From: a virus
Virus record (IMG/VR): IMGVR_UViG_3300035661_000155
Location: 1-39,429 of that record
Strand: one strand, 5' to 3'
DNA length: 39,429 nucleotides
This document shows positions 3,732 through 22,384 of this stretch, one piece after another (the stretch's first letter is position 1; each line of letters begins with the position of its first letter). The position numbers and the translations under genes are program-made. A model generated the notes under the pieces. It searched no databases, was not told where the DNA came from, and saw only the letters and a program-made list of their open reading frames with translations.

Positions 3732-6104
3732 TCACCGTACCATGTGCGGCACTCGCATTGCGCGCGCCGGTTCGGGCGGTGCAATGAGTTCTGAAAATGC
3801 TCTCGAAAGGGCATCTATTTGGTCGTCGTTTGTCCCGTTGGGGAACATCCGCATTTCGTTTATCACGCCGTCATTCCAAGGACCGCGCACCATCATCACG
3901 TTGCCGACGTTGATCTGCGCAGCCAGTGGTTCAGCCCGCGTCACCTTGTCGCCCGACTCGGGGGAGGTTGTGACAGGGTAGCCCGCCAGCTTGCGGGTTA
4001 GGTACAGTACCTGCGTTTTACCGGCTTGGCCGGGGTCTTGCGGCAGGCTGATTCGCACCGACTTGCCATCGCGCGAAGCGGTGTTTATCAATGCCGCGTC
4101 GCGTTCGTCTGGCCCACATCGCAGGTGAACCATGTCACCGATAATGAGGCGTCCATCGGGCAATTTGCCTAGCTTCGCGCCGGCCGTATAGTCGCCGTCG
4201 ACCGAGGCGGCCAAGTCCCAGCCGCGAATCCATTTGATTGGTTCAGCGGGCAACGCGTCTATCACGTTGATCGCGTCGGGCTTGATAATCCCTCCTTCCG
4301 GCGGCGCCGGGCGTTGCATGTATTGGCCGGCGAACACATAGGGCGCGGCCTTTTCCATTCTGCGCAAGTCGGTGATAGTGTGTTTTTCCGGCCAGAGCGC
4401 TGTTCCGTCGGCCTGAATTGCGGGCAGGCAGACATGCTCCCATTCCTCGCCGTTGCCGCCATCAAGCAGCCAGCCAGCCAAGTCGCGTTCATGCAGTCGC
4501 TGCATTATTAGGATGATTGGCGTTTCTTTGCTGTTCTTGCGGCTTTCCAGCGTGTTCTGGAACCAATCGATCACGTTCTGCCGCATCACGTCACTGCGGG
4601 CTTCATCTGCCTTGTGAGGATCATCAAGGATAATGCAATTGGATACAATCGCCCCGCTTTGTGCTAGAACAAAATTATGATTCGTTCTCACTTCCAGGCA
4701 GAAGGTAACGTCGACATGTCCGACATCACGAACGAACGCTGGCTTGAAGTAGCCGGCACAGAAGGGCTTTACGAGGTCTCCGACATGGGCAGGGTTCGCA
4801 GGACAACCCCCATGCGCTTGCTCAAACCCAGCAACGACGGCAAGGGCTACCTCCGCGTTAACTTTTCGGTGCGCGGCAAGGTGTCGCATCGATACGTCGC
4901 GCACCTTGTCCTTGAAGCTTTCGTAGGAAGCCGACCAGATGCGAATGAAGCTCGCCACCTTGACGGAAACAGCCGAATAAATGCGCTCACAAACCTCGCG
5001 TGGGGCACAAAGGCCCAGAACATGCAGGATGCCATCAGACACGGCACCTTCCCGCTGCTCGAGCGGAGACCGGGCGCAAGACTTACGCGCGAACAGGCCG
5101 TGGCGATATTCACTAGCATGGACAGCACAGCAAGCATCGCCGCTAGGCACGGCATCTGTACTGGGGTCGTTCGGCAGATCAAGCTGCGCGAGACCTGGGC
5201 TAGCGTTACGGCAGACCTTCCAGATGCCGACTGGCGATACAAGCCAAAACACTCGCCGGATGTAATCGCAGTAGCGATTGACCCAACAAAGACCCGTGCG
5301 CATGCCATGAGCGAAACCGGACTTTCGCTGCACCAGATCAAGCGAATCCGCAAGCTGGCTCGCCTCAATCCATCCGACGCTGGTCAGTAGTTCATGATTC
5401 GGCGTACAGCGAAAGCTGCTACCGTCTGACATACCGACTTCAACAATGTCGTTTCCAGGGTTAGTCCAGAACGTGTCAATCGGCATCAGTTCGGCGACAC
5501 CGGCCTGCTCGTTCCACGACCAGACGCGCACAGGAATCCGCTTTGTCACAATGTCGCCAATAGCGAGCTGGCCGACCTCCGTCTCAATTAGCTGCTCGTA
5601 AGGGAAGCAACCGCCGAAGCCATCGCGGTGCTTTCCGGCGCCGAATCCGGTGATCGTGCCACCAGCGCCGGCGGCGTACATCACGCCGCCTTCAGTGGTC
5701 GTCCAATGGCTTTTTGCGTCCGATGCCAAACGGCAAGCCGGGAAAACTTGGCTGTAAGCCTCGTGCTGCAACAACGAACGCACGTTGGCGCTGTTGTTCA
5801 CGGCCAGCGGTGCGGCGTAGCTCGCGTGGATGAACTCTGCATCCGGCACCTGACCTAGCGCCCAGGCGATGAAATTCACCACCGCGATTTCGGTTTTCGA
5901 GTACCGGGGCGGCATGTTGATGATTAGGCGCTTGCACTCGCCGCGAAACACGCGCATGAGAGCATCACATATGGCTTTGTGGTGCGTACCTCGCAGCCAC
6001 TTGTAGCGGCGGCGCTGAAAGAACATCCAGCGCGAGAAAAAGTACAGGTCTGCCCGCGCCATCCTTGCAGCCGCGAATTGTTCGTCCGGGCTGAATTTGC
6101 GCAT
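3732..6104 (-). CDS. terL: Large terminase subunit, interrupted by an intein
   Basis: ATP-driven DNA packaging motor and headful or site-specific nuclease. The start is ATG 6104, with GAGG seven bases before it; the TTG six bases further upstream has no room for a ribosome site. Numbering from that TTG: Walker A-like NMPPRYSKTE at 65-74, extein join FGG|CIILDDPHK with Walker B at 492-498, an RNase H-type nuclease start RGWDLAAS and a late acidic residue in DDQIDALS. The precursor is 790 aa. Removing the 324-residue intein leaves 466 aa, a normal TerL length. The intein sits between the adenine-binding half and Walker B, the conserved site type that inteins favour. An HNH gene overlaps the intein on the other strand. 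The terS stop lies three bases upstream, so translation is coupled. Confidence 0.93.
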   Translation of the reverse strand: MRKFSPDEQFAAARMARADLYFFSRWMFFQRRRYKWLRGTHHKAICDALMRVFRGECKRLIINMPPRYSKTEIAVVNFIAWALGQVPDAEFIHASYAAPLAVNNSANVRSLLQHEAYSQVFPACRLASDAKSHWTTTEGGVMYAAGAGGTITGFGAGKHRDGFGGCFPYEQLIETEVGQLAIGDIVTKRIPVRVWSWNEQAGVAELMPIDTFWTNPGNDIVEVGMSDGSSFRCTPNHELLTSVGWIEASQLADSLDLVQRKSGFAHGMRTGLCWVNRYCDYIRRVFWLVSPVGIWKVCRNASPGLAQLDLPNDPSTDAVPSGDACCAVHASEYRHGLFARKSCARSPLEQREGAVSDGILHVLGLCAPREVCERIYSAVSVKVASFIRIWSASYESFKDKVRDVSMRHLAAHRKVNAEVALAVVAGFEQAHGGCPANPAHVGDLVKPFCAGYFKPAFVRDVGHVDVTFCLEVRTNHNFVLAQSGAIVSNCIILDDPHKADEARSDVMRQNVIDWFQNTLESRKNSKETPIILIMQRLHERDLAGWLLDGGNGEEWEHVCLPAIQADGTALWPEKHTITDLRRMEKAAPYVFAGQYMQRPAPPEGGIIKPDAINVIDALPAEPIKWIRGWDLAASVDGDYTAGAKLGKLPDGRLIIGDMVHLRCGPDERDAALINTASRDGKSVRISLPQDPGQAGKTQVLYLTRKLAGYPVTTSPESGDKVTRAEPLAAQINVGNVMMVRGPWNDGVINEMRMFPNGTNDDQIDALSRAFSELIAPPEPARAMRVPHMVR
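4638..5609 (-). other. Intein inside the large terminase
   Basis: A protein-splicing element of 324 residues. It begins with Cys (CFPYEQLIETEVGQLAIGD, block A) and has block B CTPNHELLTSVGW about 68 residues in. It ends FCLEVRTNHNFVL...GAIVSN (blocks F and G), followed by extein Cys+1. The termini Cys...Asn|Cys fit standard class 1 splicing. The residue before the final Asn is Ser, where His is usual. Removing it restores FGGCIILDDPHK, a continuous Walker B region. The linker between blocks B and F shows no LAGLIDADG or HNH motif in sense. Instead the antisense strand carries the HNH gene at 4716-5390. Confidence 0.9.
4716..5390 (+). CDS. HNH homing endonuclease (NUMOD4-HNH), antisense within the intein
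   Basis: Probable site-specific nuclease that spreads the intein. The ATG at 4716 (AGAAGG ten bases upstream) gives 224 aa; an earlier ATG at 4677 has no ribosome site. The NUMOD4 motif WLEVAGTEGLYEVSDMGRVR is at 8-27. An HNH_3 module follows, from HRYVAHLVLEAFVG through ARHLDGNSRINALTNLAWGT, with the expected H, N and N. A helix-turn-helix-like C-terminal part (about 130-170, LTREQAVAIFTSM...IAARHGICTGVVRQI) probably binds DNA. The gene fits almost exactly between splicing blocks B and F of the terL intein and runs opposite to it. I see no clear promoter of its own. Confidence 0.88.
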   Translation: MSDITNERWLEVAGTEGLYEVSDMGRVRRTTPMRLLKPSNDGKGYLRVNFSVRGKVSHRYVAHLVLEAFVGSRPDANEARHLDGNSRINALTNLAWGTKAQNMQDAIRHGTFPLLERRPGARLTREQAVAIFTSMDSTASIAARHGICTGVVRQIKLRETWASVTADLPDADWRYKPKHSPDVIAVAIDPTKTRAHAMSETGLSLHQIKRIRKLARLNPSDAGQ

Positions 6105-6106
6105 GT

Positions 6107-6535
6107 TCAAACCTCGTCGGCGATTGCCTTGGCGATCTCCCGGAATTCGTCCTTGGTCATGCTCACGCTTTGGACTGGCCCACCGCCGTTTCCGGACAGT
6201 TCAACACGCTGCGTGTCCCTCCACCCCGCCTGAGATTTCAGCCAGAAAATGACTGAGGCGGTATCGCCTGCAATCGCTTTTTTGTAGAGAGTCTGCGCGA
6301 CAACAACATTAGCTTTGATCTTTCCGGTATCGAGTTCGGCGGCAAAGTTCTTGCGCATCGTCGGTTCACTGATTGGCTTGCCCTTAGCATCTTTGATGAA
6401 TATGCAAATGTCGGAGTGCCGCAGGCCGAATGATGCCAGTTGCAGCACCAGGTCTCGGTGTTCATCGGTCGGCTTGAACATCGTGCGGCCGGCGCCTGGA
6501 CGTTTTCCGCCAGATTTACCCTTAACTCCAGGCAT
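6107..6535 (-). CDS. terS: Small terminase subunit
   Basis: Recognises phage DNA and loads the large terminase. 142 aa. The N-terminus is basic and Gly-rich (MPGVKGKSGGKRPGAGR). It is followed by a helix-turn-helix region (about 24-65, LVLQLASFGLRHSDICIFI) and the family-typical block GDTASVIFWLKSQAGWRDTQ (about 94-113). The C-terminal helix EFREIAKAIADEV probably contacts TerL. GGAG lies upstream of the ATG, and the stop is three bases before the terL ATG. It is the first gene of the late operon. Only a methylase remnant and a terminator lie in front of it. Confidence 0.85.
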   Translation of the reverse strand: MPGVKGKSGGKRPGAGRTMFKPTDEHRDLVLQLASFGLRHSDICIFIKDAKGKPISEPTMRKNFAAELDTGKIKANVVVAQTLYKKAIAGDTASVIFWLKSQAGWRDTQRVELSGNGGGPVQSVSMTKDEFREIAKAIADEV

Positions 6536-6798: not shown

Positions 6799-7470
6799 TC
6801 ATACCGCCGACTGGGCAGAACTGGCGTCTGGCTTCATGAACACCAGCCAGTGCGTCAGGCCTTTGCGTCCTGAAATATGGCCGAACAGCGGCTTGACTGG
6901 CGTTAACGCAAGTACTTCTCCGACTTTAATTTGCGTTTCGTTCCACTTGAAGACAAGCGTCCCATCGGGGTGCAGAACGCGGAAACACTCGGCAAAGCCC
7001 TTGCGCAAGTCGTCTCGCCAGTTGTCCGATAGTTTTCCGTACTTCGCGGCCATCCAGCTTTTCGGGCCTGCCGTGCGAAGGTGCGGAGGATCGAACGCAA
7101 TCAATTTGAAAGCCCCATCCTGGTACGGTAGCGCCCTGAAATCCAGCAGCGTGTCCGGCTCAATCCGCAGCGTTCGCGTACCGTTTTCGCTCCCGTTCGA
7201 GCGGTCGGTGACAACGATAGTCTCGCTGCGCTGGTCGCCGAATATGGTGTCCGGGTGCTTCCTATCAAGCCACATCATCCGGCTACCGCAACATGGGTCT
7301 AGCACTCGCGGAATGCAGCTACTGTAGCAAGGGTCGAGCACCGCCGGGAATGTCGGCGCCGGAGACGCGGCGACCCCTAACGCGGCGGTCAAGTCGGACA
7401 GGCCGCCGGCGCTGTTATTTTGAGTTTGTGTGTTATGCGGCCTGCCGCTTACCTCTACGTTAGCCGCCAC
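6799..7470 (-). CDS. SAM-dependent methyltransferase (DPPH family)
   Basis: Class I methyltransferase, substrate unknown (DNA, a nucleotide or a small molecule). The motif I-like VLDPCCGSRMMW is followed by a stretch around FGDQRSE, and motif IV is IAFDPPHL. The C-terminal part CFRVLHPDGTLVFKWNETQI is characteristic of a conserved phage family, usually near 180 aa, that starts just before motif I. The longest frame starts at GTG 7470 without a ribosome site, overlapping the previous stop by 11 bases. Its first ~35 codons run through an attC-like palindrome (7374-7466), so GTG 7341 (180 aa) or GTG 7305 (168 aa) may be the true start. Motif I is partly duplicated in tandem (VLDPCYSS then VLDPCCGS, 36 bases apart). 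It is the last gene of a three-gene operon. Confidence 0.8.
   Translation of the reverse strand: MAANVEVSGRPHNTQTQNNSAGGLSDLTAALGVAASPAPTFPAVLDPCYSSCIPRVLDPCCGSRMMWLDRKHPDTIFGDQRSETIVVTDRSNGSENGTRTLRIEPDTLLDFRALPYQDGAFKLIAFDPPHLRTAGPKSWMAAKYGKLSDNWRDDLRKGFAECFRVLHPDGTLVFKWNETQIKVGEVLALTPVKPLFGHISGRKGLTHWLVFMKPDASSAQSAV
7374..7466 (-). repeat. attC-like recombination site (site A)
   Basis: On the minus strand R'' GGCTAAC opens the site and R' GTTAGGG closes it. Inside, GGTAAG pairs with CTTGACC leaving one unpaired G, and CAGGCCGC pairs perfectly with GCGGCCTG around a loop of about 30 bases. This is the layout of an integron attC site: R'', L'', loop, L' with an extrahelical base, R'. The TAA stop of the 56-aa gene lies in R'', as in gene cassettes. 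The first 14 bases after R'' (AACGTAGAGGTAAG) are identical to site B at 21419-21508 on the other strand. The last base of R' deviates from GTTRRRY. Confidence 0.65.
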
Positions 7471-18680: not shown

Positions 18681-18764
18681 CGCTTGAATTGATGCGACTT
18701 TGCGTCTTTATCGCAAATGGCGCCTAGAATGAAATTTTATGCAACTACTTTATTGGAGAACGTA

Positions 18765-19064
18765 ATGCACAAATTAATGACTCTGGAAATGCCTGATGGT
18801 AGCAAGTGGGGCGTGCCCGTGGAAATGATAGCCAGGAACCGAGCGGAACACTACGCAAAAGAGTTTGGCGGAGACGTAGAGCTTAGCCTTTCAGAAGGCA
18901 CAATGCCGTTATTCGAGAGCGACAGCCGCGTGATTGAGGATTGGGCAGTAAATAACATGGACTGGTCTGATTTCGACGGGCATCAAGTGAAGGTATCAGA
19001 AGCACCATCGCCAGATTTTCAAGATGCGTGGATGAATAGCCCAAAGGGGTTTGTTGGTGCATAA
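18765..19064 (+). CDS. Conserved small phage protein
   Basis: 99 aa from ATG 18765, with GGAG six bases upstream (an earlier ATG at 18717 has none). It reads MHKLMTLEMPDGSKWGVPVE, then RAEHYAKEFGGDVELSLSEG and WAVNNMDWSDFDGHQVKV. This is a family I have seen in many phage accessory regions, with a conserved WAxNNMxW motif and no known function. The TAA stop is part of the R''-like box of attC-like site F. Confidence 0.65.
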   Translation: MHKLMTLEMPDGSKWGVPVEMIARNRAEHYAKEFGGDVELSLSEGTMPLFESDSRVIEDWAVNNMDWSDFDGHQVKVSEAPSPDFQDAWMNSPKGFVGA

Positions 19065-19128
19065 AACCCGAATCCAGGTGCGGGAAGGCTTTATAGCCCA
19101 GTCCCGATTGGGCGAATTACTGTTTCGC
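19060..19128 (+). repeat. attC-like site F (weak)
   Basis: AAAAC at the stop of the 99-aa gene pairs with TGTTT at 19121-19125. Inside, CGGGA..GGC pairs with GCC..TCCCG around a short loop. The R' (GTTTCGC) deviates from GTTRRRY. This is the weakest of the plus-strand sites. Confidence 0.35.
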
Positions 19129-19154
19129 CGGTGCCCAACAAACCAAGGATGAAT

Positions 19155-19781
19155 ATGGCTGAGAAAGTAGTGATCGGGAATTGCGAACTGGTGTGGATTT
19201 ACGCGCTGTGCGATCCCGTCACCAATGCGCCGCGCTATGTCGGCAAGACATCGAAGCCGTTGCTGCAACGGCTGAAAGAGCACAAGCGGCTTGCCAGGCG
19301 CAAGCGCAGGCTTCCGGTTCAGCGGTGGATGAATTCCGTTGATGGCGTGAATATCTGCGGGGCGTACATGCGCGTCCTTGAAGCCGCAAATGTCAGTAAT
19401 TGGGCCGAACGCGAACGGCATTGGATTGACTACGGAAGGCGCACCGGATGGGATTTATTCAACCTGACCGATGGCGGCGACGGCTTTCATGGTTTGGTTA
19501 AGTCTCATGAGCATGTTGCGAAGATAGCGGAATCCCTGAAGAAAGGAGCGATGTTCGCTTGCCAGTGCGGGGCGCAGTTTTGGCGCAAGCCGTCGGCCAT
19601 TGCAGCAGGCGAGGCGAAGTTTTGTTCCCGCGCCTGCTATCAAGAGTGGCAGAAAGGCAAGCCGAAGGCGATACCGAAAGGTGGCATCCCTTGGAACAAA
19701 GGCCGTCCGTGGTCAGACGACGAACGTAAGAAGATCAGCGAAGGGAAGAAGATCAGCGAAGGGAAGCGCCATGCCGTTTGA
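19155..19781 (+). CDS. GIY-YIG endonuclease with zinc finger and NUMOD3-like tail
   Basis: Probable homing-type or restriction-type DNA endonuclease. 208 aa from ATG 19155 (AAGGA five bases upstream; ATG 19149 abuts it). The GIY-YIG core is [20 protein letters not shown] (about 13-32), followed by LLQRLKEH and a Glu-bearing helix [11 protein letters not shown] Cys cluster [12 protein letters not shown]...FCSRAC (about 138-165) probably forms a zinc finger. The C-terminus [20 protein letters not shown] is a NUMOD3-type DNA-binding motif. A tandem repeat [12 protein letters not shown] stands at the end. It overlaps the methyltransferase start by 11 bases. Confidence 0.82.
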
Positions 19782-20487
19782 TGAAGTCATGATAGGTGAC
19801 TGCCGCCTGATACACGGCGACTGTCGCGATGTACTGCCGCTGCTGCCCGATTTTGATTTGGTGCTGACCGACCCGCCATATGGGATTGCGCTAAACACTG
19901 ACAATAGCCGCTTTTCGGGTGGCAACACGGCCCATGTTACAAAGCGCAGCAAAAACGTCGGTTCGGCGGGAGGTCGCCCTATTGTCGGGGATGATGCGGA
20001 CTTTGATCCGTCGTTCCTGCTCGGACTATCCGGCGACAAGATCATTTGGGGGTGGAACAACTATCCAGACCGATTGCCGCGCGGTGCGTGTCTGGTGTGG
20101 CTTAAGCGAAACGACGCCGCGTTCGGTTCGTTCCTGTCAGATGCCGAACTTGCGTGGATGAGCAAGGGACATGGCGTCTATTGTCGCCGCGACCTATCAA
20201 ACGCCGCTATCACAAACGACCGCGCGCATCCTACGCAAAAGCCGGTGACGCTAATGGAGTGGTGCTTGGGGTTTGTTCCAAAAGCCAAGACCGTCCTTGA
20301 CCCTTTCATGGGCAGCGGGAGCACTGGCGTCGCTTGTGTGCAAACCGGGCGTCATTTTGTCGGTGTGGAAATCGACCGCGCGTACTTTGACATCGCATGC
20401 AGGCGCATTGAAGACGCACAACGGCAAGGAAAGATGTTTGAAGCACCATCTCCACCAAAGCCAGAGCAACATAACCTTTTGGTCTAA
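19771..20487 (+). CDS. DNA methyltransferase (N6-adenine or N4-cytosine)
   Basis: Modifies phage DNA, probably protecting it from restriction or from the adjacent GIY-YIG nuclease. 238 aa. The catalytic [13 protein letters not shown] (DPPY at 34-37) comes before the SAM-binding [15 protein letters not shown] (175-189) and [10 protein letters not shown]. This order and size fit the beta-class N6/N4 methylase family. The region [14 protein letters not shown] (153-166) is the usual family link. The target-recognition region is short (about 45-140). The ATG overlaps the end of the nuclease gene, so the pair is co-translated. The TAA is inside the R'' box of attC-like site C. Confidence 0.9.
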
Positions 20488-20539
20488 CGCGGAAATAACC
20501 GGCGGCTGAAAGCCGTCCGCGTTGATTGACGGGTTAGTG
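20482..20539 (+). repeat. attC-like site C
   Basis: R'' is GTCTAAC (20482-20488, matches RYYYAAC) and contains the methylase stop. R' is GTTAGTG (20533-20539). CTAAC pairs with GTTAG. AAC-CGG pairs with CCG-CGTT, leaving one unpaired base. CGGCT pairs with AGCCG around a GAA loop. Unequal spacers (8 and 10 bases) give the unpaired central spacer typical of attC. Confidence 0.6.
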
Positions 20540-20569
20540 GTTGAATTACTACGACGAAAGGATTTTGAC

Positions 20570-20791
20570 ATGATTGACGCAACAGAACTTCCAGATGGAT
20601 TTTATAACCTACGATGCCCGAGAGTTCCAGAGTCTGAAACTTGTTTGGTGCGCCTGTACACACCACACGATCCGCCAGTTCGCGGAATTGGTTTCGGTGT
20701 ATGGGATGGTGGCGCATTCATGCCACTGGCCGACATTACCGATGATTCGCGGCTGACACCACTGACGATCACGGAAACCCCTAACGCATAG
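20570..20791 (+). CDS. Cassette gene 1: small protein, unknown
   Basis: 73 aa, ATG with AAAGGA upstream. It begins MIDATELPDGFYNLRCPRVP, beta-rich, with FGVWDGGAFMPLADITDDSR in the middle. No domain is recognised. It starts 31 bases after the R' box of site C and ends inside site E, so it forms a single-gene cassette-like unit. It has no promoter of its own. Confidence 0.6.
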   Translation: MIDATELPDGFYNLRCPRVPESETCLVRLYTPHDPPVRGIGFGVWDGGAFMPLADITDDSRLTPLTITETPNA

Positions 20792-20840
20792 ATAATGGGC
20801 GCCCGTTTTTTGGCGAGGCCGCTTGCACGCTGGGTTGCGG
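20779..20840 (+). repeat. attC-like site E
   Basis: R'' CCCTAAC (20779-20785) and R' GTTGCGG (20834-20840) pair at five of seven positions. Between them GGC-GCC pairs with GGC..GCC across a T-rich loop. The stop of cassette gene 1 is in the first 13 bases. Confidence 0.45.
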
Positions 20841-20859
20841 CACTTTTTTGGAGACGGAC

Positions 20860-21093
20860 ATGGAAGACGGAACGATGGTTTATGTGGCGGCCGACATGGC
20901 CCAGCCGGGCGCGGCATGGGCGGCTTGCGTGGATGATCCGCGACGGGCGAAGGACACGGCGAAGGATATTGCCGGATGGGTGCGCAATGGTGCAGCCGTG
21001 ATGCGGGTGACGCCGGAAGTGGCCCGAGAAATGATGGCGAAGTGGGTGCAGCCCGAGAAAAAGCAGAAGGCAAAAAAGGCGGCGCCGCTGTGA
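20860..21093 (+). CDS. Cassette gene 2: small protein, unknown
   Basis: 77 aa from ATG 20860 with GGAG six bases upstream (a TTG at 20848 is less likely). It reads MEDGTMVYVAADMAQPGAAW then DPRRAKDTAKDIAGWVRNGA and ends in a Lys-rich tail (EKKQKAKKAAPL). The central alpha/beta pattern with AAVMRVTPEVAREMMAKWV resembles small phage proteins of unknown role. The gene lies between attC-like sites E and D, and its TGA is directly before the R'' of site D. Confidence 0.6.
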   Translation: MEDGTMVYVAADMAQPGAAWAACVDDPRRAKDTAKDIAGWVRNGAAVMRVTPEVAREMMAKWVQPEKKQKAKKAAPL

Positions 21094-21094
21094 C

Positions 21095-21149
21095 GCACAA
21101 CGCAGAAACAGGGGCGGAGAAGCCGTCCAGCTTGATTGATTTGTTTGGC
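21095..21149 (+). repeat. attC-like site D
   Basis: R'' GCACAAC (21095-21101) and R' GTTTGGC (21143-21149) pair at five of seven positions. GG-C-GG pairs with CC-G-T-CC around the loop AGAAG. It directly follows the stop of cassette gene 2. Confidence 0.5.
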
Positions 21150-21189
21150 ATGGATTTTTATATCACAAGCATTTTCAAGGAGTTACAAA

Positions 21190-21429
21190 ATGATTGAAAT
21201 TCAATTACCAGATCGGCCAAAGCCGGTAGATTGCGAGTCTCTTCCGTTCGACGCTTACAGCGGAATGCAGATGATGGCGTATGGCAGAGCGTGCGCCGAT
21301 GCGCAAAAACTAGCCGATGAAAATGCCGAGATTAAGAGATTGCGCGAGGCTTTGGAGAAGATTGAATGCGAGCCGATCAATGCCGAATACCTTGCACGGG
21401 CCGCACTCGATGATGTGGGCACAACGTAG
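21190..21429 (+). CDS. Cassette gene 3: small helical protein, unknown
   Basis: 79 aa with a strong AAGGAG seven bases before the ATG. It begins MIEIQLPDRPKPVDCESLPF. The second half is a coiled coil (DAQKLADENAEIKRLREALE). Similar 'EIKRLREALE' proteins are common in phage accessory regions and are of unknown function. Its TAG lies inside the R'' region of site B. Confidence 0.6.
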   Translation: MIEIQLPDRPKPVDCESLPFDAYSGMQMMAYGRACADAQKLADENAEIKRLREALEKIECEPINAEYLARAALDDVGTT

Positions 21430-21508
21430 AGGTAAGGGGCGCGAGTGATGAACCAACCACGAAGTGAACCCGGCTCTTCGCGCGTCCCGCTTGACCCGCT
21501 TGTTGGGC
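21419..21508 (+). repeat. attC-like site B
   Basis: The clearest plus-strand site, 90 bases. R'' is GCACAAC (21419-21425). R' is GTTGGGC (21502-21508, fits GTTRRRY), and the two pair at six of seven positions. GGT-AAG pairs with CTT-G-ACC, leaving an extrahelical G. GGG pairs with CCC and CGCGA with TCGCG around a long loop. It shares AACGTAGAGGTAAG and the same extrahelical-base arrangement with site A on the minus strand at 7374-7466. Confidence 0.7.
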
Positions 21509-21522
21509 TTGAGGCGGCCGAC

Positions 21523-21831
21523 ATGGACATTACCGACCGGCTGCACGGATACGCAATGCTGGACAAGGGCATGACGCCCGAATCATTGGCGATGGCCGAG
21601 GCCCGAGACGAGATCGTTGGATTGCGCAGGATAGCTGCCGCGCAGCGCGATCTGATTACCTCCCTGGAGCGAGTGGCGAACGTTTCAATAACCGCCCTGG
21701 CCGAACGGGCCACGAACGTTTTTGACGTGGCAGAGATAGATCGGAAGCTAAAAACACTGGCGGCGGCAAAGGTGGGATGTATGACGCCTAACGATATGCT
21801 CGAGGGGCGCAACGTGACTGGCAGAGAGTAA
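21523..21831 (+). CDS. Cassette gene 4: small phage protein, unknown
   Basis: 102 aa from ATG 21523, with GAGG eight bases upstream. A longer frame from 21445 would translate the attC-like site itself, so I prefer the start just after its R' box. It reads MDITDRLHGYAMLDKGMTPE then SLAMAEARDEIVGLRRIAAA, a pattern (DI.DRL......EA.DEI..LR) frequent in small phage proteins. The rest is helical. It is the last plus-strand gene and converges with the spanin gene. Confidence 0.6.
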   Translation: MDITDRLHGYAMLDKGMTPESLAMAEARDEIVGLRRIAAAQRDLITSLERVANVSITALAERATNVFDVAEIDRKLKTLAAAKVGCMTPNDMLEGRNVTGRE

Positions 21832-21871: not shown

Positions 21872-22384
21872 TTATTGCGTCTTCCGGTCCTCAATGATTA
21901 CTTGCTGGCAGGCGGTGAGCTGGCGAGTGACGTCGTCGGCGTCGGAGGCAAGGGCGAGAAGAAATTCAGAAGTCGCTGCCGGAAGTTCGGCTCCCTGGGG
22001 ACCATCACGTCCGCCGGGGCCGGGGCCAGTTTCGGCGGAGCGATTTCCAAGGGAATAGATGCTGGCGGGATATTGGTCGCGCAGCCGGAGAGTGCCAGCA
22101 CGGATAGCAGCAATATCAGCAGCGCGTAGTTTGCTCGCATCGCTCAATTCCTTTTCGTAGTTAGTTGATACGGCGTTCAGCGCCAGGGCGTGAGCCTGCT
22201 CGTCTCGCCTGGCGCTATCCTGCATGGCCTTGATCTTGTCGTTGGCCGTGCGCAGTTCTGCATTCTCGCGCGCTTGCCAAACCGTGCGCTCAGCGACGTG
22301 TCCGGCTTTGTTCTGCCACCATCCGACTCCGGCGAGGCTGGCCAGCCAGCCTATCAGTAGGCCGATAATTAGATAGGGGTTCAC
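21872..22384 (-). CDS. Rz-like inner-membrane spanin
   Basis: Links inner and outer membranes in the last lysis step. 170 aa. An N-terminal signal anchor (MNPYLIIGLLIGWLASLAGV) is followed by a periplasmic coiled coil (about 28-90, ERTVWQARENAELRTANDKI). A Gly/Pro-rich stretch and a C-terminal helix come last. The start overlaps the holin stop as ATGA. The Rz1-type lipoprotein is encoded entirely inside it in another frame, which strongly supports the call. Confidence 0.85.
   Translation of the reverse strand: MNPYLIIGLLIGWLASLAGVGWWQNKAGHVAERTVWQARENAELRTANDKIKAMQDSARRDEQAHALALNAVSTNYEKELSDASKLRAADIAAIRAGTLRLRDQYPASIYSLGNRSAETGPGPGGRDGPQGAELPAATSEFLLALASDADDVTRQLTACQQVIIEDRKTQ
21898..22140 (-). 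CDS. Rz1-like outer-membrane lipoprotein spanin (nested)
   Basis: 80 aa, wholly embedded in the Rz-like gene in a shifted frame. The signal peptide is MRANYALLILLLSVLALSGC, with lipobox LSGC at 17-20, so Cys20 becomes lipidated. The mature part is Pro-rich (IPPASIPLEIAPPKLAPAPA), as in Rz1. It forms the outer half of the spanin complex. Confidence 0.85.
   Translation of the reverse strand: MRANYALLILLLSVLALSGCATNIPPASIPLEIAPPKLAPAPADVMVPREPNFRQRLLNFFSPLPPTPTTSLASSPPASK

Follow-up and report, generated by a model that had tools for sequence, protein, structure and literature searches.

Why does a virus genome that encodes no integron integrase carry a row of sites resembling the attC sites of integron cassettes, and to which gene does each of these sites belong? 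In bacteria, swappable cassettes of this sort carry antibiotic resistance genes from one cell to another. The question is raised by the virus record IMGVR_UViG_3300035661_000155, analysed here over its whole length of 39,429 nucleotides (the window). The window very probably holds an integrase-less, inverted array of the integron type, made up of four sites at 20.48-21.5 kb and accompanied by a further attC at 7.4 kb, in the genome of a tailed phage. A broader reading, which we regard as reasonably probable, is that the phages of Beta- and Gammaproteobacteria have their own common pool of cassettes, in which a 5′ attC hairpin serves as the translation start and which is kept by integron integrase (IntI) acting in trans, phage-like elements being among its sources. 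An earlier note on this DNA had described a gene-cassette array without an integrase; its observation holds in essence and is partly confirmed, and its interpretation is partly supported.

The attC sites of the window

The sites were identified with a covariance model (R1) trained on 23 bacterial attC sites and zero phage sequence, and run on the window without filters. The bacterial sites were gathered with an 18-base core taken from the best site of the window and derive mainly from Thiobacillus, Sulfuriferula, Rhodocyclales, Hydrogenophilales and Methylococcaceae; a full integron integrase is present in 16 of the 22 bacterial genomes holding related attC sites. The best match of the model, site A (7375-7466, minus strand; 52.6 bits, E 2e-11), carries the core motif with one mismatch and forms a second locus, overlooked by the earlier note. 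Four of the five plus-strand sites proposed there were recovered by this bacterial-only model: site B (20481-20539; 45.0 bits, E 1.8e-9), site E (21418-21508; 43.1 bits, E 5.6e-9), site C (20778-20840; 25.2 bits, E 2e-4) and, marginally, site D (21094-21149; 15.8 bits, E 0.058). The fifth, 19060-19128, was rejected, matching neither the covariance model nor a weight matrix.

The same five sites come out on top in an independent two-half weight matrix, with scores of 42.7 (site E), 41.5, 34.1 (site B), 28.4 (site D) and 25.2 (site C). When the window was shuffled 100 times with its dinucleotides preserved, the highest score reached was 30.9, and a single shuffle is expected to give 0.07 matches above 26. 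Sites A, B and E exceed the best shuffle and are beyond doubt as sequence matches. Sites C and D fall below it and are therefore backed mainly by their position in the array; site C is degraded yet recognisable. The fold energy is clearly better than that of shuffles only at 20482-20538 (z -4.3) and 7376-7465 (z -2.8), and the folds of sites C and D are no better than shuffles.

In the reading used here, the sites run AACG, spacer, TAAGGGGC, loop, GTCCC G CTTGA, spacer and GTT; their 3′ arm holds the extra bases. The R-box of site B is YAAC at 20486, and the AAC of sites C, D and E lies at 20783, 21099 and 21423. The window is a contractile-tailed phage, given its PHROG matches to portal, terminase, major head, tail sheath, baseplate, tape measure and tail fibre proteins. 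As the earlier note had stated, the contig has no gene for a tyrosine recombinase, and the array is therefore a cluster of attC sites lacking an integrase (CALIN) in a tailed phage. The four sites lie within 1.03 kb, a CALIN being defined by two or more neighbouring attC and the lack of intI in cis; with intI absent from the window, it is not a complete integron.

Gene orientation and the mobile unit

The outer boxes of attC look symmetric, so that the orientation of a site must be read from its inner boxes and unpaired bases. Unpaired bases are in excess on the 3′ arm of the matched strand in bacterial (68:6) and viral (136:45) sites. When the aadA1 attC of R100 is read along its coding strand, the extra bases fall in the 5′ arm, and along the bottom strand in the 3′ arm. 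This comparison and the directionality of the model identify the matched strand as the canonical bottom, recombinogenic strand of attC. In sites A, B and E of the window, the surplus of unpaired bases lies on the 3′ arm as read along the coding strand (none on the 5′ arm against three on the 3′ arm in site B); sites C and D fold poorly. The plus strand of the array had been taken for the attC top strand; by the model and by the unpaired bases it is the bottom strand. The proposed attC array without an integrase thus stands, but not the order of an integron array, the polarity of attC being opposite to that of the genes. All three callable sites of the window are inverted, and the canonical arrangement, with the gene on the attC top strand and attC 3′ of the gene, was not found in it.

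Inversion is widespread in other viral contigs. Viral samples were drawn with two attC patterns, at least 120 stretches being listed for each, and all viral counts given here and below are among the matches listed; a single attC sequence family was sampled, and gene orientation was assigned by simple rules. Inverted sites number 215 against 8 canonical ones in the viral sample (66 against 0 contigs), compared with 14 against 46 in bacteria under the same count (3 against 24 contigs). Dropping the Shine-Dalgarno criterion gives inverted to canonical ratios of 103:34 in viral and 1:55 in bacterial sequences. The replicate viral sample, drawn with the other pattern, yields 133 inverted and 5 canonical sites (39 and 1 contigs), and a bacterial sample picked with the pattern of the viral sample yields 2 and 13. 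Several inverted arrays, among them those of L253, L264, L268 and L279, stem from records whose IMG identifiers have the look of isolate genomes and not of metagenomes. The two best R1 matches in phage TJE1, both weak (E 0.018 and 0.2), lie opposite its genes, in the canonical polarity, and the inversion is therefore not produced by the method itself. The inverted polarity seems to be the new part of these observations, its layout recurring in about 100 other viral contigs; an open-access text search found no earlier account of inverted phage cassettes, although an earlier description elsewhere is possible. Because each pattern gave at least 120 stretches, attC arrays look far commoner in metagenomic viruses than the 21 published phages would indicate.

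The earlier note had assigned each attC to the gene preceding it. Viral genes shared across unrelated flanks have a median core identity of 0.73 between their attC in front (n=21) and of 0.52 between their attC behind (n=11), the value for random pairs being 0.53. Since the front attC is the more alike, the mobile unit consists of an attC and the gene after it. Judged from these comparisons, the phage unit keeps the bacterial sense relative to the cleavage point and has its gene reversed. The ends of shared blocks fall on AAC, that is, on the G^TT / AA^C cleavage point, in the contig pair L125/L136, in the bacterial contigs L033, L037 and L038, and in the pair L071/L130. The last pair shares a unit of about 360 nt, from AAC to the next AAC, with 99.7-100% identity in its coding part and unrelated sequence on both flanks; L071 is a 38 kb contig with a terminase, and L130 has genes for a complete IntI and for a lambda-type integrase. 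The block common to the window and phage contig L002, containing cassette gene C, ends at the downstream AAC only; the upstream attC has diverged and the flanks are unrelated. Such blocks, ending at AAC between unrelated contigs, bear out the earlier suggestion of unit-wise cassette exchange. The idea that genes are decoupled from their attC, with breaks at R″, was dropped, as these breaks are the canonical cleavage point once the polarity is recognised.

The array of the window begins on the left with a GIY-YIG nuclease gene (19149-19781, plus strand; GIY-YIG, E 2.9e-5), ahead of which no attC is recognisable by the covariance model or the weight matrix. It is followed by an N6/N4 DNA methylase gene (19771-20487, plus strand; N6_N4_Mtase, E 2.6e-19; phrog_67, E 2.3e-50), whose TAA stop sits in the R-box of site B. 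Cassette gene B (20570-20791, plus strand; 73 aa, unknown), without a confident Pfam or PHROG match, stops inside site C, just past AAC. Cassette gene C (20860-21093, plus strand; 77 aa, unknown) has an approximately 84-85% identical protein in L002, and the TAG stop of cassette gene D (21190-21429, plus strand; 79 aa, unknown) overlaps site E. The layout described by the earlier note, with a stop codon at R″ and the next start after R′, is correct except for the gene after 21418-21508, which starts or can start inside the loop. A possible 5′ half of a further attC lies at the array end, within gene E (21785-21808, plus strand; half-site score 21.3); the weight matrix finds no 3′ half, and the whole-site score of 22.8 is at chance level.

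In L002, a short hairpin that occurs twice (5899-5925 and 6243-6272; GTTATAGGCACC...GGTGCC, then AAAC or TAAC) stands immediately behind two R-boxes, as if attC had been lost or replaced there. For the gene to the left of the window array (18762-19064; 100 aa, phrog_17928), a relative with 62% identity lies at 4855-5139 of contig L105. As this relative sits between two attC sites, the window array may once have extended further left.

Potential start codons inside attC loops

Many of the viral hairpins contain a potential translation start. A loop start was called where the loop held an ATG with a Shine-Dalgarno sequence and the frame continued for at least 25 codons beyond the outer box. Of the 277 viral sites, 38 have such a start, compared with a mean of 3.7 and a maximum of 9 after shuffling of the loops; of 105 bacterial sites, 1 has one. 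The difference is greatest in loops of at least 40 nt, with starts in 36 of 74 viral and 1 of 51 bacterial sites; the replicate viral sample has them in 33 of 72 long loops. The opposite strand carries loop starts in 2 of 285 cases. Frame usage is 19, 18 and 1, two frames being used almost exclusively, and the third appears to be closed by the TGA in CTTGA. Another in-frame Shine-Dalgarno start within 25 codons is absent from 34 of the 38 sites, and related leaders (among them SVPLERxV, AQGPVDVxV and DGxSxLNxGL) recur in different phages.

Site E of the window is of the start-carrying type. Its L box AAGGGG lies 8 nt upstream of the ATG at 21448 in the loop, and the leader reads MNQPRSEPGSSRVPLDPL followed by V. 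The frame of cassette gene E (21448-21831, plus strand) is open from GTG 21445 or ATG 21448 in the loop and runs via the outer box into the gene; a further in-frame ATG lies about 8 codons past the outer box. At the second locus, the frame of a DNA methyltransferase gene (6799-7470, minus strand; phrog_954, E 9e-69) passes through the entire site A and is open from GTG 7470. Its homologue in L105 (47.5% identity) directly follows a start-carrying attC and starts in the attC loop.

Bacterial long-loop attC were rejected as a source of loop starts, with only the one case in 51. This case belongs to L024 (JAJVIE010000007.1), a 42 kb contig of an Omnitrophota metagenome-assembled genome and the sole bacterial contig in which a start-carrying attC is convincing. 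As it has cassettes in common with phage contigs and the size of a phage genome, it may be a misbinned phage.

Competing readings, genomic setting and known systems

Several observations weigh against an inverted array with starts in its hairpins. Sites C and D are weak taken alone. TJE1 appears canonical, so that not every phage follows the inverted layout. Viral status was taken from IMG/VR and, in about 17 of the contigs checked, also from genes for packaging, head, ejection or lysis; not all contigs checked have such genes, and some IMG/VR contigs may not be viral. Loop initiation at gene E is uncertain, a later start being possible. The differences between related leaders are evenly distributed over the codon positions (36, 44, 45) and give no sign of selection on the leader peptide, which suggests that the peptide itself is unimportant.

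The last two points would agree with loop start codons being a by-product of compact genes, the true starts lying further on and the frame being open through attC by chance. This appears improbable in view of the roughly tenfold excess of loop starts over shuffled loops, their near absence from the other strand and from bacteria, and the 34 of 38 sites without another Shine-Dalgarno start. Moreover, the core of the L105 methylase follows its attC so closely that no space is left for a second start. An alternative which we consider unlikely is that the inversion reflects sampling, either of a single ancestral inverted array or of bacterial arrays misfiled in IMG/VR. Cassettes common to contigs of several backbone kinds do indicate a connected pool, and two of the contigs carry IntI; the contigs nevertheless differ in their terminase and head-gene families, and the second viral sample repeats the inversion. 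Misfiling would dilute the inversion signal rather than create it, because bacterial arrays are oppositely oriented.

Less likely still is an ordinary canonical CALIN, captured from a bacterial integron and with each attC following its gene. The same attC family is present in IntI-bearing bacteria and phage CALINs have been published, but the polarity of the model and of the unpaired bases, the orientation of the genes in over 100 viral contigs, which is the reverse of that in bacterial arrays, and the travel of the front rather than the rear attC with shared phage genes all contradict it. The view that the hairpins are attC-like intergenic repeats or weak terminators instead of IntI substrates, and that homologous recombination between conserved arms is what moves the cassettes, would suit the integrase-free contig, its phage recombination proteins (Sak4-like, NinB, RusA) and the erosion of sites C and D, yet has equally little probability given box spacing, unpaired bases and a conserved cleavage motif that agree with IntI-associated sites, block ends at AA^C in several pairs, and the reported recombination of phage attC of another family with IntI1 (PMC9892861).

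Under the favoured reading of an inverted, integrase-less array, the window sites are members of the attC family known from integrons of Beta- and Gammaproteobacteria, with the coding strand corresponding to the canonical bottom strand and each unit spanning the AA^C of one site to that of the next. Stop codons often overlap the following R-box. Many attC hairpins would double as translation starts, with either the AAGGGG of the L box or an internal Shine-Dalgarno sequence ahead of a loop ATG whose frame leads into the gene, and ribosomes would initiate in the attC loop. Mobilisation of the window cassettes would require an integron integrase supplied in trans, either by the host or by some other element in the cell. 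Full IntI is encoded by two related contigs, L095 (IMGVR_UViG_3300044858_004705), with VapE-like and ParB genes, and L130 (IMGVR_UViG_3300014814_000055), with the lambda-type phage integrase directly after intI. Both are filed as viral and carry inverted arrays beside IntI (12 of 12 callable sites inverted). In pairwise comparison of these IntI with bacterial IntI, identity is 42-66%. N6/N4 methylases related to that at 19771-20487 occur in many array contigs, and such cargo would likely shield phage DNA from restriction.

Ahead of the array, genes of replication (SSB, NinB, primosomal protein, helicase loader and RusA) form a block that reads rightward; behind it, lysis-type genes, recognised by their translations, read leftward. 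Nested minus-strand frames just to the right of the array, at 21872-22384 and 21898-22140, resemble lysis genes by eye, the inner one being Rz1-type lipoprotein-like within an Rz-like frame. Rfam at gathering thresholds has no match in the window; megablast against a phage collection found no close relative of it, and a start-carrying attC stretch as query had no match in that collection. The only contig sharing backbone genes with the window (75-79%) is L152, a 7 kb fragment in which what appear by eye to be terminase genes come directly next and the array is missing from that position. The lack of an array at the corresponding point is suggestive of presence and absence of the array between relatives.

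Phages as carriers of cassettes are not the new route that the earlier note had supposed. Qi et al. described attC clusters without integrase and with methyltransferase cargo in isolated phages (TJE1, PH101, P12002L) in 2023, and five of the six phage attC sites tested were recombined by IntI1 in an attC x attI1 assay in E. coli (PMC9892861). What may be of wider consequence is the orientation. The selectivity for the bottom strand has been explained as placing cassette genes so that they face the array promoter (PMC8946536), and here a large set of arrays has genes facing the opposite way from that expectation of integron theory, while the hairpin seems to hold a second role at the ribosome. 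If this is true, cassette design would be more flexible than thought, and phages would form a separate gene pool with a format of its own. The near-identical cassette in the terminase-bearing L071 and the IntI-bearing L130 would provide a concrete link between phages and integrons, and the question of cassette origin would become testable with defined phage-borne units.

The window array resembles the phage CALINs of Qi et al. in its integrase-less attC clusters and methyltransferase cargo and differs from them in attC family; inverted genes or start codons within attC are not described in the available part of that account (PMC9892861). Sedentary integrons in the chromosomes of Beta- and Gammaproteobacteria (among them Thiobacillus, Sulfuriferula and Methylococcaceae) have the same attC consensus, cleavage motif and spacing; unlike the window, they have genes on the top strand and attC 3′ of the gene, and loop starts are almost absent from them. 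A frame with its own Shine-Dalgarno sequence, ORF-11, spans the recombination point of attI1 in class 1 integrons and aids downstream translation (PMC8876359), but it resides in attI, on the platform and not on a mobile cassette, and acts mainly by coupling via a short peptide. Fused cassettes also have translation signals at the cassette junction, yet these arise through the loss of attC (PMC4670013), whereas the phage attC is intact and itself bears the start.

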